Under the pieces are notes generated by a model, which saw only the letters and a program-made list of their open reading frames with translations, was not told the origin of the DNA and made no database searches. A program made the position numbers and the translations under genes. Positions 22,720-35,332 of a stretch of DNA of 38,682 bases are shown here, one piece after another; the first letter of the stretch is position 1; each line of letters begins with the position of its first letter. The DNA comes from an uncultured Rhodospirillales bacterium. GTDB taxonomy: Bacteria; Pseudomonadota; Alphaproteobacteria; CACIAM-22H2. The stretch is from contig CAIOSQ010000461.1 in the NCBI GenBank assembly GCA_903860935.1, forward strand, positions 1 through 38,682, given 5' to 3'.

Positions 22720-22809
22720 CGCTGATGGCTCCTCTTATCCTGTCGCCTCGATTCGCGAAACGGCAGCCTGGACAGATGACCGCGCCTCGCTCTAGCCCCA
22801 AGGGCTATG

Positions 22810-22824
22810 TACCTGATTTGTTCT
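22810..22824. promoter_or_regulatory. Candidate LexA (SOS) operator 1
   Basis: GTAC-CTGATTT-GTTC; on the recA strand GAAC-AAATCAG-GTAC followed by a TACATA hexamer that could be a -10 element. It differs by one base from the alphaproteobacterial GTTC-N7-GTTC SOS box and lies about 90 bp upstream of the recA start. Confidence 0.5.
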
Positions 22825-22865
22825 TGTCGACAGCAGGCGAACCGGCGGCGCCGACACCCGCGAAT

Positions 22866-22880
22866 GTACACTTTTTGTTC
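22866..22880. promoter_or_regulatory. Candidate LexA (SOS) operator 2
   Basis: GTAC-ACTTTTT-GTTC, same half-sites and same 7-bp spacing as operator 1, offset by exactly 56 bp. On the recA strand it reads GAACAAAAAGTGTACATT, again overlapping a -10-like TACATT. The shared GAACAAA...GTACAT core makes chance less likely. Confidence 0.5.
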
Positions 22881-23098
22881 TCGCTCGCAAGCAGCATCGT
22901 GCGGCGTACCACGTTGGGCATGAAGCCTCCGCCCGAACGCTCGGCCGGAAAGGAACCGTTAACGGAACCGCGCCATAAAGTACGACCATGAGGGCCGTAC
23001 TGGTGCCATGTCGGAAATCTCTGGCATCGGCCTTGTATGCTGGCCAAAACTGGCGACTGTTCCCGCGCATCTGGCCACAGCAAGTTTTCCGGTGATCC

Positions 23099-24742
23099 TT
23101 GTCCGCAGATCTCCATCGCTTCATGTCCTTTGCCTTCGCCGGGGCGGACCTGCTGATCGAGGTGGATGACAACCTCACCATCACCTTTGCCCTGGGCGCG
23201 ACCAAGGGACTGACCCCGACGTCGGATTCGCATCTGACCGGCAAGTCCCTGAAACTGATCGTCGCCGAGTCCGATCACGCCTATGTCGCCGCTCTGCTCA
23301 ATGGCTTGAAACCGGCCAGTCGCTGCGGACCGGTCCTGGTCCGACTGGCGATGACGCGCGAGGATGGAACGCCGCGCGACGCCCTGCTCAATGCCTGCCG
23401 GCTTCCGACGTCGCCCGACAAGATCAACCTGACGCTGGGGCAGGTCTCGCTCACGGGCGCCATGCATGCCGCGTCCAGGCGCAACGGTGCGGACGGCCAA
23501 CTGCTCGACGAGGGGAGTTTCACCACCGCGGCGGCCCAGTTGTCGGACGCGGCGCGCAATCTGCGCAGACCCCTTGAATTGACATTCCTCGACCTGCCGG
23601 AATTGCAAAATCCCGACGGCGCGATGAGCAAGGACCAGACGCAAGTTCTGGTCAATCGCGTCGCCACGATGCTGCGCGCGGCCTCGATCGATGGCTCGAC
23701 CGCGGCGCGGCTTGGCCCGGGACGTTTCGGTGTCGTCCATGATCCGGCACAGAGTTCCGACGACCTGATGTCCAAGGTCTCGGAAGTCGCGATCCTGCCA
23801 GACGGCACACCACTTCAAGTGAGCAAGTCCTCCGTCGATATCGCGCGCGCGGACATGACCTCCGGCACCGCGGTGCGATCGATACGCTACGTCGTCGAGC
23901 AGGTTGCCAAATCCGGCATCGATCCAAACAAGCCGACGGACCTCCTCGAGGTCTTCAATTCGATGGTCAAGACGACGCTTCAAAGGGTTCGTACCTTCAA
24001 CGACGCGGTCAGGGACTCCCAGTTCTCCCTCGTCTACCAGCCGATCGTCACGCTCGCGACGGGGCGGTACCATCATTTCGAGGTGTTGACACGCTTCAAG
24101 CCCGACGAAAGCCCGCTGAACATCATTCAGTTCGCCGAAGAAGTGGGCATCATCGAGCGTCTCGATCTGGCCGTGGCGACACGAATGGTCGACGCGCTGC
24201 GGCGCCCTGGCATGGATCGCCGGACCTCCTTCGCAATCAATGTCTCCGGCAATTCCCTCGCCAACCCTGTCTTCGTGAAGTGCTTCCTCGACCTGTTGCG
24301 CGACAACAAGACCATGGCGCCGCGCCTGGCGATCGAGATCACCGAGAGCGCGCGGCTCAAGAATCTGGAAGACACCAACCGGATCCTTCAGGACATCCGC
24401 GCCGAAGGCTTCAAGGTCTCGCTCGACGATTTCGGCGCCGGGTCCGCGAGTTTCCAGTATCTCCAGGCCCTCACTGTCGATTTCGTCAAGATCGACGGGG
24501 CCTATGTCAAGCGCCTGGGGCAGTCGCAGCGCGACGACACGATGATCAAGGGCCTCGTGCGCATGTGCGAGGATCTCAATGTGGGAACCATCGCGGAAAT
24601 GGTGGAAACGCGCGAGCAGGTAGACATACTGCGCGGGATCGGCGTCGAGATGGCGCAGGGATATTACTTCGGGCGCCCGACGCCCGAGCCGTCCCTTCCC
24701 TGGGACTTTGCCCAGCAACAGATGCGCTTCTCGAACCGCTGA
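23099..24742 (+). CDS. EAL-domain c-di-GMP phosphodiesterase with degenerate GGDEF-like and PAS-like regions
   Basis: About 547 aa, probably cytoplasmic. Residues 1-120 look PAS-like (GADLLIEVDDNLTITFALGAT, GKSLKLIVAESD). Residues 140-270 resemble a GGDEF fold, but the signature is LGPGRFG, so no cyclase activity is expected. Residues 300-547 form an EAL domain: EVL at 328-330, NVSG at 381-384, EITES, LDDFGAGSASF at about 442-452, VKIDG and QGYYFG. The acidic and Lys ligands are mostly present, so hydrolysis of c-di-GMP is likely. The track start is TTG; an ATG at 23123 is an alternative. It diverges from recA and may share its SOS-type operators. c-di-GMP control of the nearby flagellar system is a reasonable inference. 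Confidence 0.85.
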   Translation: MSADLHRFMSFAFAGADLLIEVDDNLTITFALGATKGLTPTSDSHLTGKSLKLIVAESDHAYVAALLNGLKPASRCGPVLVRLAMTREDGTPRDALLNACRLPTSPDKINLTLGQVSLTGAMHAASRRNGADGQLLDEGSFTTAAAQLSDAARNLRRPLELTFLDLPELQNPDGAMSKDQTQVLVNRVATMLRAASIDGSTAARLGPGRFGVVHDPAQSSDDLMSKVSEVAILPDGTPLQVSKSSVDIARADMTSGTAVRSIRYVVEQVAKSGIDPNKPTDLLEVFNSMVKTTLQRVRTFNDAVRDSQFSLVYQPIVTLATGRYHHFEVLTRFKPDESPLNIIQFAEEVGIIERLDLAVATRMVDALRRPGMDRRTSFAINVSGNSLANPVFVKCFLDLLRDNKTMAPRLAIEITESARLKNLEDTNRILQDIRAEGFKVSLDDFGAGSASFQYLQALTVDFVKIDGAYVKRLGQSQRDDTMIKGLVRMCEDLNVGTIAEMVETREQVDILRGIGVEMAQGYYFGRPTPEPSLPWDFAQQQMRFSNR

Positions 24743-24760: not shown

Positions 24761-27202
24761 TTAGGCGATGACCTGCTTCACCTTGCCGGCCAGTTGCTCG
24801 AGCGTGAAAGGCTTGGGCAGGAAATGTACGTCGCTCGCCGAATCCAGGCGCTTGCGGAACGTCTCCTCGGCATAGCCGGAGATGCAGATCACCCGCATCG
24901 TCGGGCGCTGCTCTCGCACGCGCTTGATGAGTTCCGTACCATCCATCTGCGGCATCACGACATCGGTGACGAGGACATCGATCTGCGGATGCGTGGCCAA
25001 CAACTCCAGCGCGTTCTCCCCCGATCGGGCCTCGATGACCTTGTAACCCTTGTTGCGCAGCGCCCGCGCCGAGAACAGGCGCACGGCATCCTCGTCCTCG
25101 ACCAGCATGACGGTGCCGGCCCCCGTCGTGTCGGACCGGCGGGCCTCGGCGACGGTCTCGACGGGCTTCGCGATCTCGCCCTTCCAGCGCGGCAGGAGAA
25201 TACGGAACGTCGTCCCGCGCCCGACGGTGGAATCCACCGATACGAAGCCGCCAGTCTGCTTCACGATGCCGTAGACCGTCGACAGTCCCAGCCCGGTTCC
25301 TGAGCCGAGTTCCTTGGTCGAGAAGAAGGGCTCGAAGATGCGCCCGAGATTCTCGGGCGGAATCCCGATGCCGGTGTCGCCCACCTCGATCAGCACGTAG
25401 TCGCCCACCGGCACGGTCTCGACGCCACGCTGCTCGGGACGCTCCAGGGTCACGTTCGCGGTCCTGATCGTCAGACGCCCGCCTCCGGGCATCGCGTCGC
25501 GGGCGTTGACGGCAAGATTGATGACGACCTGCTCGAACTGCCCCTGATCGACGCGGACGAGATGCAGATCCCGGGCGTGGACGATCTGGAGCGCGATGTT
25601 CTCGCCGATCAGCCGCCGCAGCAGATGGGTCAACTCGCTGAGCGGATCGGTGATGTCCGTGACGGTCGGCTTGAGCGTCTGCTGGCGGGAGAACGCGAGG
25701 AGCTGGCGCACGAGATTGGCGGCACGGTTCGCGTTCTGCTTGATCTGCATGATGTCGGCGAAGGACGGGTCGCCAGGCCGATGGCGCAGCAACAACAGAT
25801 CGCAGAAGCCGATCATCGCAGTCAGCAGGTTGTTGAAGTCGTGCGCGACGCCACCAGCAAGTTGGCCGACCGCCTGCATCTTCTGCGATTGCGTGAACTG
25901 GACTTCGAGCCGCTTCTGGTCGGTCACGTCGAGGAAATGCAGCACGAGTTCGGCATTGCCGGACGCCGCCTGCTCGACCCGGGCGGCATAGAGCGATACC
26001 GACACCTCGCGGCCGCCCTGCGCCACGAAGCGCGCCTCCATGCTGCCCGTCGGATCGTCGCCCCGCGCGATGCGGCCCAGTCGCGCCGTGATGTCGGCGC
26101 GCTCGTCGGCGTGCAGAAACTCGGCGAGCGCCCGACCGCGCGCGGCGCCACGCGAAAACCCGGTCAGCCGACAAAACGCCGCGTTGCAGGCATCGATCCG
26201 CGTGACGGCATCGAGCCGCGCGATCGCGACCGGCGCCTCCTCGAAGAGACGCATGAACCCCTGCTCCGTGCGCGCCAGGGCGGCTGCCATCGCGCGCTCG
26301 GGCCCAAGATCACGCACGACGGCACGGATGGTCACGGCGCCATCGGGACCGATCACCGGGGTCTGGGAAATGAAGACCGGCATGCGTCGCCCGTGCCGGC
26401 CGCGAAGCACGGCCTCGCCCATTGCATGCGTGCCGCCGCCGACCGGATCATGGGGCGGTGTTCCTGGCGGCGGCGGTTCCAGCAGCACGTCGTGAAGGCG
26501 CCGCGGTCGCGCCCCGTCGTCCTCATTGCCGATCCAATCGGCCAGCGTCGCGTTCGTGTAGAGGAAACGCCCGTCGCCATCCACGGCATAGAACCCGACG
26601 GGCGCCCGTTCGAGGAAGTCGACGACCTTCGCGCGCTCCTCGGCCAGGATCCGTTCGGTGCGCCGCTGCACCGTGACGTCGTCGATCTCCCACGACGTGT
26701 AGCCGGCATGCCCGCCGAAGCCGTCGACCGTGATGTCCCAGTAACGCCCCTCGTCGCGCCCGCCATTCAAGACGACGGAAAACCGACGCTCCGCTCCGCC
26801 ACGCGCGTCATCCCACGCCTGGGCGAGGGCGTCGCGGGCCGGATCGTCGGGATCGAGACGCTCGGCGAGCCAGCGCAGCCCCGGTGCCTCCGGCATACCG
26901 AATGCAACACGGAAGGCGAGGTTCGACCAGATCACCCGGCCACCCGGATCCATGACCACCCGCGCGCGGGCCTCGGCGCCCTCCACAAGTTCGAGGATCC
27001 GCGCGGAGCCGGTTGGCCCGCGCGCCAGAACGAGCCGCGCCACCACCGCGCCCAGCGCGCCGCCAGCGACAGCCGCCGCGATCGACAGCGCCGACATGGA
27101 GGGCATTGCGACCTGCGCGGCAAAGACACCGACCGCCGGAAACCCCGCCGCGCACAACCCCGCCATGGCAGTCGTCGCCCAGGCCTGTCCCGATCTGTTC
27201 AT
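24761..27202 (-). CDS. cckA: Cell-cycle hybrid histidine kinase CckA
   Basis: An 813-aa sensor kinase. Two hydrophobic stretches lie at about residues 8-30 and 38-60, followed by PAS-type regions at about 75-180, 190-300 and 315-428. The HisKA/ATPase part opens with FTQSQKMQAVGQLAGGVAHDFNNLLTAMIGFCDLLL, where His 454 is the phosphorylation site, then NLAVNARDAM, GDTGIGI and GTGLGLST. A C-terminal receiver has VEDED, phospho-Asp about 747 in VTDVVMP, and Lys in PKPF. The kinase core is strikingly CckA-like. CckA drives ChpT and then CtrA. The start at 27202 has a CGGAGCAG Shine-Dalgarno; the ORF-track extension is shadow of flhB. It follows flhB by 88 bp. Confidence 0.9.
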   Translation of the reverse strand: MNRSGQAWATTAMAGLCAAGFPAVGVFAAQVAMPSMSALSIAAAVAGGALGAVVARLVLARGPTGSARILELVEGAEARARVVMDPGGRVIWSNLAFRVAFGMPEAPGLRWLAERLDPDDPARDALAQAWDDARGGAERRFSVVLNGGRDEGRYWDITVDGFGGHAGYTSWEIDDVTVQRRTERILAEERAKVVDFLERAPVGFYAVDGDGRFLYTNATLADWIGNEDDGARPRRLHDVLLEPPPPGTPPHDPVGGGTHAMGEAVLRGRHGRRMPVFISQTPVIGPDGAVTIRAVVRDLGPERAMAAALARTEQGFMRLFEEAPVAIARLDAVTRIDACNAAFCRLTGFSRGAARGRALAEFLHADERADITARLGRIARGDDPTGSMEARFVAQGGREVSVSLYAARVEQAASGNAELVLHFLDVTDQKRLEVQFTQSQKMQAVGQLAGGVAHDFNNLLTAMIGFCDLLLLRHRPGDPSFADIMQIKQNANRAANLVRQLLAFSRQQTLKPTVTDITDPLSELTHLLRRLIGENIALQIVHARDLHLVRVDQGQFEQVVINLAVNARDAMPGGGRLTIRTANVTLERPEQRGVETVPVGDYVLIEVGDTGIGIPPENLGRIFEPFFSTKELGSGTGLGLSTVYGIVKQTGGFVSVDSTVGRGTTFRILLPRWKGEIAKPVETVAEARRSDTTGAGTVMLVEDEDAVRLFSARALRNKGYKVIEARSGENALELLATHPQIDVLVTDVVMPQMDGTELIKRVREQRPTMRVICISGYAEETFRKRLDSASDVHFLPKPFTLEQLAGKVKQVIA

Positions 27203-27290: not shown

Positions 27291-28376
27291 TCATTGGGGT
27301 CTCGGGCGCTGGCTACCCGATTTGAGGCGCCACACATAGCTGATGATCTCCGCGACCGCCTTGTAGTGCTCGGGCTCGATCGCCCGGTCGACCTCGACCG
27401 TCGCGTGGAGGGCGCGGGCGAGCGGCGGGTTTTCGACGATCGGCACCTTGTTTTCCGTCGCGATCTCGCGAATGCGCAGGGCGATCCTGTCGGTCCCCTT
27501 GGCGACGACCATCGGCGCTTCCATGGCGTCGCGATCGTATTTGAGCGCAACGGCATAGTGGGTCGGATTGGTGATCACGACATCGGCCTTCGGCACGGCC
27601 GACATCATCCGGCGGCGCGAACGTTCCTGACGGATCTGGCGCAGCTTCGCCTTCACCATCGGATCGCCTTCCTGCTCCTTGAACTCGTCGCGCAATTCGG
27701 TCCGCGTCATCCGCAGGTCGCGCTGCAGCTTGATCCGCTGATAGACGACGTCGACGCCGGCGATCACCGCCGTCACCGCGACGGTCGCGATCAGCAATTT
27801 GAGGGTCAGATCGGCCGTCGTGACGAGCGATTGCTGCGGCTCTTGGAGCACCATGAGGGGCAAAGTGTCGAAATCTGGAACGGCGACGATCCAGAAGATC
27901 CAGGCGACCACCGCGAGCTTGATCAGCCCCTTGGCGAATTCGACCAGTGACGAAACGGAAAACAGCCGCGACACCCCCTTCAGCGGGGAAACCTTGCTGA
28001 ATTGCGGCTTGATGGCCTCTGGCGCCACCATCCAGCCGACTTGGACATATCCCGCCGCGAGCCCGGCCACGAGTACGGCCAGGACGATCGGCCCGCACAG
28101 CATCCCCACCGCCAGCGCCCAGTCACCCATCATGCCCTGGAGATCGCCGATCTCGATGCGCATGAGGTGCGCATCTCCAAGGGAGGTCGAGAAGAGCACG
28201 CGCAGACGATCGGCCATCCACGGGGAAAACCCCGCGAGCGCCACGGTCGAGGCGAAGAGCACGAACCAGTTGTTGACCTCGCGCGACGACGCGACCTGCC
28301 CACGCTTGCGCGCGTCGTCCAGTCGCTTTTGCGACGGCTCCTCGGTCTTGGAACTCTCGTCGTTGTCGTCGGCCAT
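27291..28376 (-). CDS. flhB: Flagellar export switch protein FlhB
   Basis: A 361-aa component of the flagellar type III export gate in the inner membrane. The N-terminus has DESSKTEEPSQKRLDDARKRGQVASSREV, typical of FlhB, followed by four hydrophobic helices up to about residue 212. The cytoplasmic domain contains the self-cleavage site ITNPTHYAVALKY, with cleavage between Asn 270 and Pro 271, which switches export from rod/hook to filament proteins. It is 15 bp after fliR in the flgB-to-cckA series. Length and motifs are normal. Confidence 0.97.
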   Translation of the reverse strand: MADDNDESSKTEEPSQKRLDDARKRGQVASSREVNNWFVLFASTVALAGFSPWMADRLRVLFSTSLGDAHLMRIEIGDLQGMMGDWALAVGMLCGPIVLAVLVAGLAAGYVQVGWMVAPEAIKPQFSKVSPLKGVSRLFSVSSLVEFAKGLIKLAVVAWIFWIVAVPDFDTLPLMVLQEPQQSLVTTADLTLKLLIATVAVTAVIAGVDVVYQRIKLQRDLRMTRTELRDEFKEQEGDPMVKAKLRQIRQERSRRRMMSAVPKADVVITNPTHYAVALKYDRDAMEAPMVVAKGTDRIALRIREIATENKVPIVENPPLARALHATVEVDRAIEPEHYKAVAEIISYVWRLKSGSQRPRPQ

Positions 28377-28391
28377 GCGATCCGCCCGCGC

Positions 28392-29165
28392 TCAGCGCAA
28401 CCGCAGCAGACCCCCGAGGGTCCGCTCGAGTTCCTCGAGATAGATGATCATCGCCGTTCCGGACCCCATCGCGAACAAGATCAGCCCCAGTGTGACCTGG
28501 AGCGGCATGGCAACGAAGAATACCTGCATCTGCGGCATCAGTCTCTGCATCAGGCCAAGACCGACGAAGAGCAACGTGGCATAGGCAAGGAAGGGCATCG
28601 CCATACGCAGGCCGAGCAGGAAACTGCGCGCTACGAAGCGCACCGCGGCATCCGCGAATTCCCCGGGATCGATCATCTGCCCGGCCGGAAGCAGCGCATA
28701 GGACTCGGCGACGGCCCGGATCAGGACGTGGTGGAGATCGGCCGAGAACATCACGACCAGCGCCAGCGTCGTCATCCAGGACGACGTGATGATGCCTTGC
28801 TGCTGAGTGCCCGGATCGAAGGCGTAGGCACTGGCAAGTGCCGTCTGGAAGCCGATGATGACACCGGCGACTTGCGCCGCCGCCAGGATCAGCCGCGCCA
28901 CGAGCCCGAGGAACAGACCGGCAATCGCCTCGACGGCGATGAGCCCCGCCATCGCCAGGGGCTCCACGGGCAGCGCCGGAAGCACAGCCGAGACGCCTGG
29001 CGCGATCACCGCGGTGATCGCCACGGCGATCACGAGCCGGATGCGCGCAGGAACCACGGTCTCGGCGAAGCCAGGCAGAACCGCGAAGGCCGCGCCGACG
29101 CGCACGAAGACGATGAACAGAGACCAGACCTGACCGGCGAGCAGCTCCGCGAGCGCGCCGGGCAT
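28392..29165 (-). CDS. fliR: Flagellar biosynthesis protein FliR
   Basis: A 257-aa integral membrane protein of the flagellar export gate (FliPQR complex). It is almost entirely hydrophobic helices, with FVRVGAAFAVLPGFAETVVPARIRLVIAVAITAVIAP near the start and IIGFQTALASAYAFDPGTQQQ in the middle; the latter pattern is diagnostic of FliR. The start MPGALAELL at 29165 shares one base with the fliQ stop (TGATG), showing tight coupling. The longer ORF in the track is a shadow extension over fliQ. Confidence 0.94.
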   Translation of the reverse strand: MPGALAELLAGQVWSLFIVFVRVGAAFAVLPGFAETVVPARIRLVIAVAITAVIAPGVSAVLPALPVEPLAMAGLIAVEAIAGLFLGLVARLILAAAQVAGVIIGFQTALASAYAFDPGTQQQGIITSSWMTTLALVVMFSADLHHVLIRAVAESYALLPAGQMIDPGEFADAAVRFVARSFLLGLRMAMPFLAYATLLFVGLGLMQRLMPQMQVFFVAMPLQVTLGLILFAMGSGTAMIIYLEELERTLGGLLRLR

Positions 29166-29431
29166 CAGAACCCGCCGACGATCCGCGATGCGAGTTCGCG
29201 CGTGAACCCGATCAGGGTGGCAACCATGAAAGGCAGCGAGATCAGGAATACGGCGAAGATCGCGAGAATCTTCGGCACGAAGGCCAGGGTCGCCTCCTGG
29301 ATTTGCGTCAGGGCCTGGAACAGCGAGACGACGAGACCGATGACAAGGCCGACCACCATCATCGGCGCCCCCAGCTTGATCGTCACCCACATAGCGTCGC
29401 GCGACACCGTCAGGACGTCGTTGACCTCCAT
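29165..29431 (-). CDS. fliQ: Flagellar biosynthesis protein FliQ
   Basis: An 88-aa protein with two membrane helices, a subunit of the FliPQR export gate. VLTVSRDAMWVTIKLGAPMMVVGLVIGLVVSLFQALTQIQEATLAFVPKI is a near-textbook FliQ sequence, with the conserved FQALTQIQEATL loop between the helices. It follows fliE by 6 bp and overlaps fliR by one base. Confidence 0.96.
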   Translation of the reverse strand: MEVNDVLTVSRDAMWVTIKLGAPMMVVGLVIGLVVSLFQALTQIQEATLAFVPKILAIFAVFLISLPFMVATLIGFTRELASRIVGGF

Positions 29432-29437
29432 GACCGC

Positions 29438-29749
29438 TCAGATCGGCATGCGGATGACGTCGAGATAGGCCTGGATGACCTTGTCGCGCACGGCGACGGC
29501 GGCCTGGAGCGTCACTTCGGCGTTCGACACGGCCGTCACCACCTGCGCCATGTCAGGCTTGCCGGACAGCGCCTGGGACGTCGCGGCCTCGCCGGCCTGC
29601 ACCGTTCCCATCGCCCCGGCAGCCGCCTGCTTGAGCAGGTCGGCGAAGCCGCCCGGCGCGGCCGCCGCACCGTCGATCCCGCCGATCGACGGGACGCGCC
29701 CGAGGGCGCTCGAATAGGCGGCCGCAGCCGCGTTGAAACCGACCTTCAT
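29438..29749 (-). CDS. fliE: Flagellar hook-basal body protein FliE
   Basis: A 103-aa export substrate that links the MS ring and export gate to the proximal rod. The C-terminal half carries the family pattern: ADLLKQAAAGAMGTVQAGE, VVTAVSNAEVTLQAAVAVRDKVIQAYLDVIRMPI. I place the start at the ATG at 29749, which has GGAGG five bases upstream; the GTG at 29755 used in the track would put that signal inside the gene. The N-terminus is Ala/Gly-rich and poorly conserved, as usual. It lies between flgC and fliQ. Confidence 0.93.
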   Translation of the reverse strand: MKVGFNAAAAAYSSALGRVPSIGGIDGAAAAPGGFADLLKQAAAGAMGTVQAGEAATSQALSGKPDMAQVVTAVSNAEVTLQAAVAVRDKVIQAYLDVIRMPI

Positions 29750-29772
29750 CGCCACCTCCGCTGCATGATGAA

Positions 29773-30183
29773 TCAGCCGCGCAGGATGTCGATGGTACGC
29801 GAAATCATGTTCTTCGCCACCTCGATCACGCCGAGATTGGCTTCGTAGCTACGCTGGGCCTGGCGCATGTCCATCATCTCGATCACCGAGTTGACGTTCG
29901 GGATCTTGACGTAGCCCGCGGGATCCGCCGACGCATTCGAGGGTTCGTAGCGGGTCTGGAAGGCCCGCTTGTCGAGGACGACGCGATCCGCGCGCAGTGT
30001 CCGGACGCCATGCTCGCGGTCGAACACGTTGCGGAAGGACGGCATCTTGCGGCGATAGGGGTCTTCGCCCTGCCGGTTCGGAGGGACATCCGCGTTGGCG
30101 ATGTTCTCCGCCACCATGCGCATGCGCAACGTCTGCGCATCCATGCCGGACGCGGACACCTTGAGAATGGACGAGAAGTTCAT
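29773..30183 (-). CDS. flgC: Flagellar basal-body rod protein FlgC
   Basis: A 136-aa proximal rod protein, exported through the flagellar system. The N-terminal helix SSILKVSASGMDAQTLRMRMVAENIANADVPP and the C-terminal VEMMDMRQAQRSYEANLGVIEVAKNMISRTIDILRG-type helix form the conserved rod coiled-coil pair. The central part, DPYRRKMPSF and GYVKIPNVN, is typical of FlgC. It follows flgB by 24 bp and precedes fliE. Confidence 0.96.
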   Translation of the reverse strand: MNFSSILKVSASGMDAQTLRMRMVAENIANADVPPNRQGEDPYRRKMPSFRNVFDREHGVRTLRADRVVLDKRAFQTRYEPSNASADPAGYVKIPNVNSVIEMMDMRQAQRSYEANLGVIEVAKNMISRTIDILRG

Positions 30184-30207: not shown

Positions 30208-30609
30208 TCAGCCGCCGCGCGTGAGGACTGCGCGGAACATGCCGATCTGCTTGCGGTAGAGATTGGTGACGAGTTGATAGTCCATCGCCGTGTCGGCCGA
30301 CTTCATCAACTCGTGGTCGAGGGTGACGGAATTTCCCGACAGGGTCGTTTCCTTCTGCTTGGCTGTAAGACCGCCCTGCGCCATCCCAGACTCGCTTCCG
30401 CCCGCGTGGGCGGAATTCGATTGCGCGAGACCGATCCGGCCACGCCCCGTCGCGCCGGACACCCGGAACTCGAACGGCCGGATGTCACGCGCCACATAGC
30501 CGGGCGTGTCGGCGTTCGCGACATTCTGGGCGAGCACCTTCTGGCGCTCGCCGAGCCAGTTCATGCGCTGCACGAACTTCGAGAACAGGTTGAGCCGACT
30601 GAGATCCAT
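30208..30609 (-). CDS. flgB: Flagellar basal-body rod protein FlgB
   Basis: A 133-aa proximal rod protein. It has the rod-family signature KVLAQNVANADTPGYVARDIRPFEF near residues 24-48 and a C-terminal helix MDYQLVTNLYRKQIGMFRAVL. The middle, about residues 60-90, is Gly/Ser-rich and variable. It is the first gene of the minus-strand series flgB-flgC-fliE-fliQ-fliR-flhB-cckA, and the CtrA-like boxes lie 60-120 bp upstream of its start. Confidence 0.95.
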   Translation of the reverse strand: MDLSRLNLFSKFVQRMNWLGERQKVLAQNVANADTPGYVARDIRPFEFRVSGATGRGRIGLAQSNSAHAGGSESGMAQGGLTAKQKETTLSGNSVTLDHELMKSADTAMDYQLVTNLYRKQIGMFRAVLTRGG

Positions 30610-30668
30610 CGCCTGGTCCGCGTCTCCGCAAGCAATCCGCGATCAGGCGTCAGAGTCGCATGCCAAGC

Positions 30669-30683
30669 TTAACGAGCGGTAAA
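30669..30683. promoter_or_regulatory. Candidate CtrA-binding box 1 (flgB/fliO region)
   Basis: TTAA-CGAGCGG-TAAA, one mismatch to the CtrA consensus TTAA-N7-TTAA. It lies 60 bp upstream of the flgB start, a suitable place to control that operon. Confidence 0.45.
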
Positions 30684-30710
30684 TCGCAGACGGCAGGCAT
30701 CGGCGGGAGG

Positions 30711-30729
30711 TTAGCGATCGGTTAACCAT
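30711..30729. promoter_or_regulatory. Candidate CtrA-binding box 2 (flgB/fliO region)
   Basis: TTAG-CGATCGG-TTAACCAT: one mismatch to TTAA-N7-TTAA, and the second half is the exact extended half-site TTAACCAT reported for Caulobacter CtrA. It is about 100 bp upstream of both flgB and fliO. Confidence 0.55.
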
Positions 30730-30823
30730 GCATCCCTAGCATGGACGTGCAGACCGGCCTTTTGGCCGTGGTCGCGCGCCTCAGGCCGCGATCCTAGACG
30801 AACCAACCGGCCAGGCATGCGCG

Positions 30824-31144
30824 ATGTTCGACACCGAAATCCTCCTGCGTTTCTCGGCCGCTCTCGCGGCGGTGATCGGGCTCATCCTGGGCGTCGCCTG
30901 GCTTACGCGACTTCGGCGCGGCGGCACCGGCGGCGGTTTGCTCCAGCGCGCACCGCGTCGCCTCTCGGTCGTCGAAACGCTTCCCATCGATAGCCGCACG
31001 CGGATCGCCCTCTTGCGCTGCGACGATCGAGAGTACCTCCTAGCCATTGGGGCCAACGGGGTCACGCCTATCCCCGGGGCGCCCCACGCCGCGTCCCTCT
31101 CCGCCCAGGCCCCTGCCCGCTCACCGGAAATCGCAACGCCATGA
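30824..31144 (+). CDS. fliO: Flagellar biosynthetic protein FliO
   Basis: A 106-aa protein with one membrane helix at about residues 10-27 (FSAALAAVIGLILGVAWLTRL) and a cytoplasmic part RLSVVETLPIDSRTRIALLRCDDREYLLAIGANG, the conserved FliO segment. FliO helps assemble the FliP ring in the export gate. Its stop overlaps the fliP start by 4 bp (ATGA), which supports the assignment. The C-terminus is Pro/Ala-rich and ends soon after the core, short but within the family's range. It diverges from flgB. Confidence 0.88.
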   Translation: MFDTEILLRFSAALAAVIGLILGVAWLTRLRRGGTGGGLLQRAPRRLSVVETLPIDSRTRIALLRCDDREYLLAIGANGVTPIPGAPHAASLSAQAPARSPEIATP

Positions 31145-31902
31145 ACACGACCTTCCCCAGGCTCAACCCCGGACATACCGGCCTGCTTGCGCTCACCCTC
31201 GCCTTCGTCGCCACGGAGGCAGGCGCCCAGAGCCTGTCGCTCGATTTCGGCGACGGCCCGACGAGCACGGGGCGTGTGGTCCAGCTCTTCGTCCTGCTGG
31301 GTGTCCTGAGCCTCGCGCCATCGATCCTCGTCATGGTGACGTCGTTCACGCGAATCGTGGTCGTGCTGTCGTTCCTGCGCAACGCGATCGGGTTGCAGCA
31401 ATCGCCCCCCAACGCGGTGCTGATCAGCCTCGCCCTGTTCCTCACGGGCTTCGTCATGGCGCCGACCCTCGAGATCGCCTATCGCGACGGGCTCGCGCCC
31501 CTGGTCGAAGGGCGGATAGACGAGATGGAAGCGTTCACGCGGATCTCACGGCCCTTGCACGAATTCATGTCGCAGCACACGCGCTCCCAGGACCTCAGAC
31601 TATTCGCCGACATGGCAAACCTCCCGGAGTCCACGCCTCAGGCCGAGGTGCCGCTGCGCGTGCTCATCCCCGCCTTCATGATCAGCGAACTCAAGCGCGC
31701 CTTCGAGATCGGCTTCCTGATCTTCGTGCCCTTCCTGATCATCGACATGGTGGTCGCGTCGGTGCTGATGTCGATGGGCATGATGATGCTGCCGCCCGCC
31801 GTGATTTCCCTGCCGTTCAAGCTGATCTTCTTCGTGCTGGTCGACGGCTGGAACCTGGTCGCCGGCTCGCTGGTCCAGAGCTTCAATCCGGTCACGGGGT
31901 AA
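31141..31902 (+). CDS. fliP: Flagellar biosynthetic protein FliP
   Basis: A 253-aa core ring protein of the flagellar export gate. A cleavable signal peptide (GLLALTLAFVATEAGAQ) precedes helix 1, LFVLLGVLSLAPSILVMVTSFTRIVVVLSFLRNAIGLQQSPPNAVLISLALFLTGFVM, a diagnostic FliP run. The C-terminal half has VPLRVLIPAFMISELKRAFEIGFLIFVPFLIIDMVVASVLMSMGMMMLPP. Length is normal. It is coupled to fliO and ends 22 bp from the convergent TPR-protein gene. Confidence 0.97.
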   Translation: MNTTFPRLNPGHTGLLALTLAFVATEAGAQSLSLDFGDGPTSTGRVVQLFVLLGVLSLAPSILVMVTSFTRIVVVLSFLRNAIGLQQSPPNAVLISLALFLTGFVMAPTLEIAYRDGLAPLVEGRIDEMEAFTRISRPLHEFMSQHTRSQDLRLFADMANLPESTPQAEVPLRVLIPAFMISELKRAFEIGFLIFVPFLIIDMVVASVLMSMGMMMLPPAVISLPFKLIFFVLVDGWNLVAGSLVQSFNPVTG

Positions 31903-31924: not shown

Positions 31925-34900
31925 TCAGCCTGGCGACGCGCTGCGGCCAGCCATCTGCTTGCGGTAGTTCTGCAGGAAACCCTGGAACGGCGCCACCGCG
32001 TTGATGCGCTGGACGACGGCCGACATGTCGCCTGGCCGGTCCACCGTTTCGGCAGTCACCACCCGGAACAGGTCGCGATAATCCGTCGCGTCCATCGCCG
32101 TCGCGAACCGCTCGCGCAGCGCACGAAGTCCGGCCATGTCCCCGGCGAGTCCGAGCGCCGTCGCATGGTGAAGGAGATCGCGCGCGCGCGCCTCGTCGAG
32201 CACCGTGCCGGCAGGCGGCGGATCGCCGACGATGCGCGCGAAACTCGCGGCGACGCCCGCCCAGTCGCGAGCCTGGCGCAGCAGCTCGGCGCGCAGCCGG
32301 TGCGTCTCCTCGCTGTCATCGCCTGCAAGCCGCGCCATGCCCTCCTGGATCCGCCCGGCTCCCGCCAGCGCGCGCGCCTCGATGCGGGCACGCTGGCGAG
32401 CCACCGCTGGCGTCGCAGGCGCGCCTCGGGTGGCCGTCAGGGTGGCCAGTGCCGTGTCGGGCTGGTTGGCAAGCAACTGGACGAAGGCAAGCTTTGCTGC
32501 GACTTCGGCCTTCTCGGACGGCGTCGCGCGATGCTTCACCTGATGATCGAGAAGCGCCGCGGCCCGATCCATCAGATCGACCTCGACCAGCCTGTCTACC
32601 AGCCGGCGGACCATCGCGTCACCGCGCGCGCCGAGGGGCACGCGGTCGCGAAACTCCTCGAAAAGGGCGATGGCCTGCACGGCGGGAAGCTTGTCGGCCT
32701 CGCCGTCGAGGAACAGGCGCGCGAAGATGATGTCCATCTCCGCCATGATCTCGCGGGTCTCCCGCGCGTCCGGAAACTGCGCCGCGGCGTCGCGCAACAC
32801 CTGGAGACCGGCGCGGTGATTGCCCATCTCGCCGTGGACGCGGGCGAGAAGTATCAGCGTCCGCAGTTCGGTGCGATCACCACGCCACGCGAAGCGCAGG
32901 CGATCCAGCGCCTCGATGGCATCGGCGCGCTCCATCTTGTCGGCACCAAGCCGCAATTCGATGCGTGCGAGCGTAGCCTCGGCGCGCGTCGGCGAGGGAC
33001 CGCCCTCCTCGAGCGGTGCCCAGATGCTGGTCGCGCCCTCGACGTCGCCCTGCCGCGCCAGGACCCGCCCGCGCATCAGCGCCAGCTGGCGCCGCTGCGG
33101 CTCTGTCAGCGCCTGCCGTTGGGCAAGGTCCATGAATTGCACGGCGGCATCGGTCTGTCCGGCGGCGAGTTGGGCCTCGGCGCTGGCGAGCCACACCCTG
33201 GGGCCGACCGGAGGCGGATAGCGTTCCGCAAACTCGACCCCGCGCGTCACCAACTCGCTGGCCGCAGCATAGTCTCCGAGGCGCAGCTTCACGAGACCGC
33301 TCCAAAGCGCCGCCTCATGGCTCAACGCCAGCGTCGGGTGAGCGAGGCTCCGTTCCGCCTCCTCGATGTCGTCGGCAAGCCAGGCGGATGCGGCGCGCAC
33401 CACGCGCGACGACGGAAGCCCCGCGAGACGCGGCGCCTCGACCTCGAGGATGCGCATCTGGGCCAGGGCCTCGAGCCCATATCCATTGGCGAGCAGGAAC
33501 TGAGCCAACGCGACCCGCTCGGGGCCGCGACGTTCGGCAGGCGTCATGGCCAAGGCGCGATGGAGCGACTGCCTGACCTCGTCCACGGGACTCCGCGACC
33601 GCGCCCAATTACGGAGATCAAGCAATTCCTGACGGCGCGTGGCGGCCGCGCCGTCCATCACCGTCGTGTCGGCGCCGATGATCGGCTGTGGTCCAGACAA
33701 TTCGACGAGGCTGCCGTCCAGCTTCGCCTGGACGCGATCGGAACGCGGAAGAACCGCGATCCCGTGCGCCGCGGGCAAAAAACGAAAATCGGGGAATGGC
33801 CGGTTGCTGGTCACCGCAAAGCCGGCGGAGGTCGTCGGCAGGACGATCAACTCGTCGCTGGAATCGGGATCGCGGACGCGCAGGAGGCTCTGGAGCCCCG
33901 GCATGTCGACCACGATGCGACCGCCGGAGCCATCGGGGTTCGCGCGAATGGCGGGTTCCACATTTCGCCGCGGGGGCGCCGGCTTGGCGCCGATCTCGAC
34001 CGCCCATCCATCCCCGTCCCGCGTCACGGCGACGTCCCAGCGCGTCGGCGGCGCGATCCGCAGGATCGTCGCGGGAGCGGGGGTCTCCATGATGGTCGCG
34101 TCGTAGGCACCGATCTCCCGACGACGCGCCTCGAGCTGGGAGAGGTCCAGCGCATGCCGGCGGTCGATGACGATCCAGATCACCGATCCACGCACGAAGG
34201 CAGCGACCCCCGCGACAGGACGGGGCGCGAAACGCAACCGGTAGCCGACCGCACTGGGCGCGATATCGACCGTCAGAGGCGTTGCCCCCACCATGCGCGG
34301 CGGCAGCGGCCCGACTGTCAAGCCGCCGGATGCGGGCGCGACGGCAGCGGCGGACTGTGATTGTGGACGCCCGGATTGCGGCGCCGAGGGTTGAGCCGGG
34401 ATGGACGCCGGGGATGCAGGCGCTGCTGACGCCGGTGGCGGGACCGGCGTTGAAGCCGGGGGTCCCGACGGCACCGGCGTGGAAACCGGAGCCGGCGACT
34501 GGGCCTGAGCCGGCGCGACTGCGGGCGCGGCCGGAAACTCTAGCGACGGCACGGATGGCGGTTCGGTCGGCGGCGGCGCGGGCGGAAGAGCTGCCCTCGT
34601 CTCGGGTGGTGCGGCGATAGCCGATGAGGGAAGCGCGATCGGTCGTGGAAGCGGCGGATTCACCGATGGCGGTGGCGGCGGCGGTCCGGATGCCGTTGGC
34701 GGAGCCTGCACACCCACAGCGCCAGGAACCGCCTGTGCAGCGGGGGAACCGGACGCGGCCGTTGATGCCGCTGCCGATGGCAATGGAGGTGGCGACACGG
34801 ACGCCGATGCCGGTTGCGCCGGCGTGGCGGCTGCCGGCGGCGTCTGAGGCGGCGGCGCGGCGGGGCGCGACGCCTTTTCCTGGACAAGACGCCGCGTACT

Positions 34901-35332
34901 CGCGGGATCGACCGGATCGCTGGCCGTGGTGCGGACGAAATCGAGTACCACCGAGCGCTCGTTGCGGAAGTGCCGCAACTGCACCCCGGGCGCCAGGGTG
35001 AAGCTCACCGTGGTCCCGCCGGGGCTGGCCGTAGCGCGCAACCCGGTGGCGCGTTCCCCCAGCCGCCGGGCGATCGGACCGATATCGATCTCGGAGGCCT
35101 GACCGAAACGGATCGTGATGTCGCGGCCAGAGACATCCACGTCGTATTCGACGGCCCCTCGCCAATCGAGCACGGCACGATCGTAGCTTTCATGCGCGCC
35201 GACGCGCGGCACAAGGCGGTCCTGGGCCCACGCCGACGGCCCTGCCCAGCCCGCGAGGCAAAGCGCCAGCGCAAGCCCGCCAAGACGGGCGGGCAGCCCC
35301 CTGCGCGAGGCGTGCGATCTCTGGCGCGGCAT
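31925..35332 (-). CDS. Large secreted protein: AMIN-like beta domain, Pro/Ala-rich linker, TPR-type helical region (function unknown)
   Basis: An 1135-aa protein I cannot name. A signal peptide (GLALALCLAGWAGPSAWA) is followed by a beta-rich region at about 40-145 (YDRAVLDWRGAVEYDVDVSGRDITIRF, VVLDFVR) that resembles AMIN-type domains. About 150-340 is a low-complexity Pro/Ala linker and about 345-550 a second beta-rich region. From about 555 to 1120 the sequence is helical with TPR-like spacing (LLARVHGEMGNHRAGLQVLRDAAAQFPDA). It should be periplasmic. It is 20 bp after cheY in the fliL-fliM-DUF6468-motE-cheY series, so a motility or envelope role is inferred. Similar large TPR proteins seem to occur beside flagellar genes in related bacteria. 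Confidence 0.75.
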   Translation of the reverse strand: MPRQRSHASRRGLPARLGGLALALCLAGWAGPSAWAQDRLVPRVGAHESYDRAVLDWRGAVEYDVDVSGRDITIRFGQASEIDIGPIARRLGERATGLRATASPGGTTVSFTLAPGVQLRHFRNERSVVLDFVRTTASDPVDPASTRRLVQEKASRPAAPPPQTPPAAATPAQPASASVSPPPLPSAAASTAASGSPAAQAVPGAVGVQAPPTASGPPPPPPSVNPPLPRPIALPSSAIAAPPETRAALPPAPPPTEPPSVPSLEFPAAPAVAPAQAQSPAPVSTPVPSGPPASTPVPPPASAAPASPASIPAQPSAPQSGRPQSQSAAAVAPASGGLTVGPLPPRMVGATPLTVDIAPSAVGYRLRFAPRPVAGVAAFVRGSVIWIVIDRRHALDLSQLEARRREIGAYDATIMETPAPATILRIAPPTRWDVAVTRDGDGWAVEIGAKPAPPRRNVEPAIRANPDGSGGRIVVDMPGLQSLLRVRDPDSSDELIVLPTTSAGFAVTSNRPFPDFRFLPAAHGIAVLPRSDRVQAKLDGSLVELSGPQPIIGADTTVMDGAAATRRQELLDLRNWARSRSPVDEVRQSLHRALAMTPAERRGPERVALAQFLLANGYGLEALAQMRILEVEAPRLAGLPSSRVVRAASAWLADDIEEAERSLAHPTLALSHEAALWSGLVKLRLGDYAAASELVTRGVEFAERYPPPVGPRVWLASAEAQLAAGQTDAAVQFMDLAQRQALTEPQRRQLALMRGRVLARQGDVEGATSIWAPLEEGGPSPTRAEATLARIELRLGADKMERADAIEALDRLRFAWRGDRTELRTLILLARVHGEMGNHRAGLQVLRDAAAQFPDARETREIMAEMDIIFARLFLDGEADKLPAVQAIALFEEFRDRVPLGARGDAMVRRLVDRLVEVDLMDRAAALLDHQVKHRATPSEKAEVAAKLAFVQLLANQPDTALATLTATRGAPATPAVARQRARIEARALAGAGRIQEGMARLAGDDSEETHRLRAELLRQARDWAGVAASFARIVGDPPPAGTVLDEARARDLLHHATALGLAGDMAGLRALRERFATAMDATDYRDLFRVVTAETVDRPGDMSAVVQRINAVAPFQGFLQNYRKQMAGRSASPG

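Follow-up and report, generated by a model that had tools for sequence, protein, structure and literature searches.

The 214-bp region between flgB and fliO most probably serves as a divergent flagellar promoter, in which two predicted CtrA sites would activate transcription both ways, the kinase gene cckA being probably co-transcribed on the flgB side. In the window (the whole stretch of 38,682 bp analysed here), two CtrA-like boxes, each a single base off the consensus TTAA-N7-TTAA, lie in this region 42 bp apart, just as an earlier note on this DNA had claimed for positions 30665-30732. Box 1, on the flgB side, is TTAACGAGCGGTAAA (30669-30683, no strand assigned); read on the flgB strand, it takes the form TTTAC-N6-TTAA and precedes the flgB start codon by 60 bp. 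Box 2, on the fliO side, is TTAGCGATCGGTTAA (30711-30725, no strand assigned), followed by CCAT (to 30729), and the exact extended half-site that the same note had placed in the second box is indeed there: TTAACCAT, at 30722-30729 on the forward strand, points toward fliO and is the sole copy in the window when both strands are searched. Both boxes are identified by pattern, matrix and conservation, which for box 1 is conservation of the TTAA-N7-TAAA form.

The placement of the boxes between flgB and fliO, likewise claimed earlier, is confirmed by profile searches with the flanking genes. The leftward cluster, on the reverse strand, starts with flgB, which encodes a proximal rod protein (30208-30609; TIGR01396, 65.0 bits, above the cut-off), and continues with flgC, for another proximal rod protein (29773-30183; TIGR01395), fliE (29438-29755; TIGR00205), the export gate genes fliQ (29165-29431; an open reading frame for which tblastn finds a match in the corresponding syntenic position in 20/20 relative loci) and fliR (28392-29141; TIGR01400; start approximate, the N-terminal part of the listed reading frame being probably non-coding), the export gate/switch gene flhB (27291-28376; TIGR00328) and, finally, the hybrid histidine kinase gene cckA (24761-27202; PAS, HisKA, HATPase and receiver domains). 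The CckA models NF046020 and NF046026 match cckA with 711.6 and 499.3 bits, respectively, both below the curated 1000-bit cut-off and by far the best matches; the start of this gene is taken as the in-frame putative ATG at 27202, 88 bp past flhB. On the forward strand, the rightward cluster starts with fliO (30824-31144; PF04347, and TIGR03500 with 49.5 bits against a cut-off of 55.25), followed by the export gate gene fliP (31141-31902; TIGR01103, 301 bits). Among the loci that hold both flgB and fliP, the two genes are divergent in 61 of 62, including that of a Caulobacter MAG, and the order flgBC-fliEQR-flhB-cckA is found class-wide: in 49 of 55 loci, cckA follows flhB at a distance of at most 2 kb and in the same orientation. 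The earlier statement that the operon ends in cckA holds in part: cckA does belong to the leftward gene run, but an open reading frame on the same strand starts approximately 42 bp further on, so that cckA may not be the last gene. That reading frame (22805-24718, reverse strand) has no family matches and is conserved in the relative G003, where its homologue also follows cckA. Downstream of fliP, a large convergent reading frame (31925-35332, reverse strand) shows a weak TPR-type match, and its homologues adjoin fliP in several members of the class. Most relatives carry an FhlB-like gene and a small reading frame between box 2 and fliO; both are missing from 30730-30823 of the window, and an FhlB query on this genome returned two flhB genes and nothing else.

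Could the boxes simply be AT-rich words that happen to occur in a divergent promoter? Neither of them is a perfect palindrome and promoters are richer in AT than genes, which is what such an explanation would draw upon. No sequence in the window other than boxes 1 and 2 comes within one mismatch of TTAA-N7-TTAA, with 0.31 such matches expected, and two of them are reached by 4 of 100 shuffles; TTAA itself occurs three times in these 38.7 kb, twice in the flgB-fliO region. The genome-wide scan proposed in the earlier note has now been run, and this pattern search detects 36 places with no more than one mismatch in the whole 4.59-Mb genome, fewer than the 98 places for the reversed control pattern. 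Because the genome holds just 36 such places, the occurrence of two of them 42 bp apart at one promoter is far from chance. When a scoring matrix trained on the flgB promoters of other families of alphaproteobacteria is applied to the window, the two boxes rank first and second, with 19.1 and 16.7 bits, whereas the next best match scores 8.2; this advantage of 8-11 bits also argues against chance words. In a simulated 4.59-Mb sequence, the matrix finds 0 and 1 sites at 19.1 and 16.7 bits, respectively.

It is conservation that decides the matter. In three genomes of the genus, the half-sites together with CCAT are invariant at 18 of 20 bases, the spacers at 2 of 14, and the 59 bp adjoining flgB at 11 of 59, a footprint that is hard to reconcile with chance words. 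The family comparison covered flgB upstream regions from 18 genomes (among the searched genomes, the order consists of this family alone); 17 of the 18 have TTAA-N7-TAAA, identically oriented, on the side of flgB, with counts of 0-2 for any other spacer. Since these 17 genomes share the TAAA deviation, box 1 is itself a conserved variant, and this variant is found in several other class members as well. On the side that corresponds to box 2, the relatives G003, G004, G005 and G006 possess the perfect TTAA-N7-TTAA. Across the class, 37 of 61 loci have an exact TTAA-N7-TTAA ahead of flgB (35 of 57 upstream regions after removal of near-duplicates), compared to 0-3 loci for spacers of 2-6 and 8-13 bp, and both the specificity for spacer 7 and the class-wide recurrence count against chance. 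Thus, the boxes are kept in orthologous promoters of the genus, the family and the class, and the chance reading, to which we assign a negligible probability, is, as far as comparison of sequences goes, already refuted by this conservation. In one genus of the family, g6 (L052-L060), box 1 is kept and box 2 is TTAA-N7-TTAG. The box-to-box spacing of 41-42 bp is strict in the genus of the present genome alone and is at least 48 bp elsewhere; hence we refrain from any statement about the helical phasing of the two boxes.

The genome encodes the entire set of relay genes considered here, namely ctrA, chpT and cckA. The gene for CtrA itself, on the presence of which the earlier note had made its interpretation depend, is located on contig C82 (G000:C82:12060-12731), and its product is 70% identical to Caulobacter CtrA over the full query; chpT, which encodes a ChpT-type phosphotransferase, is on the same contig. 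No box with one mismatch or less was found in the region upstream of ctrA, and accordingly, autoregulation of ctrA is not claimed. Within positions 1-17000 of contig C82 (L086), ctrA and chpT occur together with a DUF1153 (SciP-like) gene and fliF, and the latter two genes are preceded by one-mismatch CtrA boxes (1272 and 1716, respectively). Elsewhere in the genome, one-mismatch CtrA-like boxes are located just upstream of, or near, the starts of two DUF2336 genes (L068 1501 and L069 1501), and further sites of this kind were located at, or close to, a GGDEF-EAL gene, a PAS_5 gene and a response regulator gene. There is, furthermore, a second, divergent flagellar system in this genome (L107, that is, G000:C30, and G000:C174; 31% identity for flgB and 47% for fliP), the flgB of which has no CtrA box with one mismatch at a distance of 1.5 kb or less.

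With ctrA present and the boxes conserved in orthologous promoters, the earlier proposal that the rod and export-gate genes are under CtrA control is largely supported. Under the scenario that we favor, the phosphorelay would proceed from CckA via ChpT to CtrA~P, which would bind boxes 1 and 2, close to the -35 regions of the leftward flgB promoter and the rightward fliO promoter, respectively, such that each gene would be served by its nearer box. CtrA would most likely activate both directions, turning on the genes for the proximal rod and the export gate as part of the early flagellar set, and cckA, the last gene in the conserved leftward run, would probably be co-transcribed at least in part, resulting in positive feedback on the relay. 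No clear -10 element is readable in the window at the flgB or the fliO promoter, and a sigma-70 scan yielded nothing useful at either of them; because no such element can be read with confidence, we infer the sign of regulation, and activation of flgB seems preferable to repression. By analogy with flgB2p-fliI2p of Rhodobacter sphaeroides, one activating CtrA box per promoter is the most likely arrangement. On the flgB strand of the class alignment, the pattern TTAACCAT...GGCAa...tGCC includes a downstream signal at a fixed distance, which is what a promoter driven from the box should show. This GGCAa...tGCC after TTAACCAT is seen in many Hyphomicrobiales-type loci among the class loci L119-L186 and possibly represents the core promoter or another site; a sigma-54 reading of GGCA...TGCC in other orders was dropped given that the GG-to-GC distance does not fit.

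The same sites might act with the opposite sign on one side, CtrA activating fliO and repressing flgB along with cckA, in which case the cckA loop would be negative or absent. This is what has been reported for the flgBp/fliOp pair of C. crescentus (PMC6180460), and the exact TTAACCAT in the window does face fliO, not flgB. We nevertheless regard this version as unlikely: the two boxes here are separate, one per side, as in the R. sphaeroides promoter pair in which both directions are activated; the distance from box 1 to the flgB start codon leaves room for a promoter downstream; and TTAACC(AT) faces flgB in many other members of the class, accompanied by the fixed-distance downstream signal. 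In part of genus g6, no more than about 25 bp separate box 1 from the flgB start codon as assigned by homology, and there repression or a leaderless transcript fits as well as activation.

The possible feedback loop from CckA through CtrA back to cckA is the least settled and the most interesting part of this analysis. An exact CtrA box is present in the flhB-cckA gap in just 1 of 49 relatives; if CtrA controls cckA at all, it would therefore do so via the flgB promoter, and in this genome such control rests on read-through from flgB across the 88-bp gap after flhB. An alternative that falls only a little short of an even chance is that the boxes work and cckA is transcribed mainly from its own, CtrA-independent promoter after flhB, its placement in the operon being a relic of an ancestral cluster; this alternative is limited to cckA and is compatible with the preferred explanation of the boxes. 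The 88-bp gap itself, in which no CtrA box was found in the window, is consistent with such a promoter, as is the fact that other species require cckA for more than motility; none of the nine g6 loci examined showed cckA after flhB, and the gene was not found beside the cluster in 6 of the 55 class loci. Against it stand the gene order kept in the other 49 and the failure of a pattern scan to detect a terminator in the gap. For co-transcription with flgB, one can tentatively, and with less confidence than for the separate promoter, envisage a deeper origin, whereby an ancestral alphaproteobacterial flgBC-fliEQR-flhB-cckA operon was a CtrA target, so that CckA production was tied to early flagellar expression by a direct feedback loop that predated the cell-cycle role of CtrA and disappeared wherever cckA moved out of the cluster. 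CtrA control of cckA has been predicted in Rhodobacterales (Brilli et al., 2010; PMC2877005); in a search of the open-access literature on cckA, flhB and the operon, no paper describing CtrA control of cckA via the flgB promoter was found. If it is true that cckA is read from the flgB promoter, an old feedback loop becomes testable in many species.

The two boxes themselves are an ordinary, well-supported counterpart of a promoter already known as a CtrA target in Caulobacter. CtrA control of flagellar genes has been stated for all studied alphaproteobacterial orders (PMC8116508), and the present observations extend predicted direct control of the genes for the rod and the export gate to an order that has been little studied; the recurrence of a CtrA box upstream of flgB across the class agrees with the published view that motility was the original role of CtrA (Greene et al., 2012, as cited in PMC8116508). 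The flagellar cluster of Rhodospirillum rubrum carries ctrA, cckA and chpT, according to PMC12363192, and resembles the present case in the association of CtrA-relay genes with flagellar genes. In R. sphaeroides, flgB2p-fliI2p contains two independent CtrA sites, both activating, as established by mutagenesis and ChIP (PMC6180460); the likeness consists in a divergent flgB promoter with two CtrA sites, predicted here from sequence, but the partner there is fliI2, with 6 bp between the half-sites and 47 bp between the start sites, whereas here the partner is fliO and the spacing is 7. The closest parallel in gene content is the flgBp/fliOp region of C. crescentus, with the same two genes, divergent, and a CtrA site between them; there, as cited in PMC6180460, one site is common to both promoters, with fliO activated and flgB repressed, whereas here two predicted boxes lie 42 bp apart, one per side.
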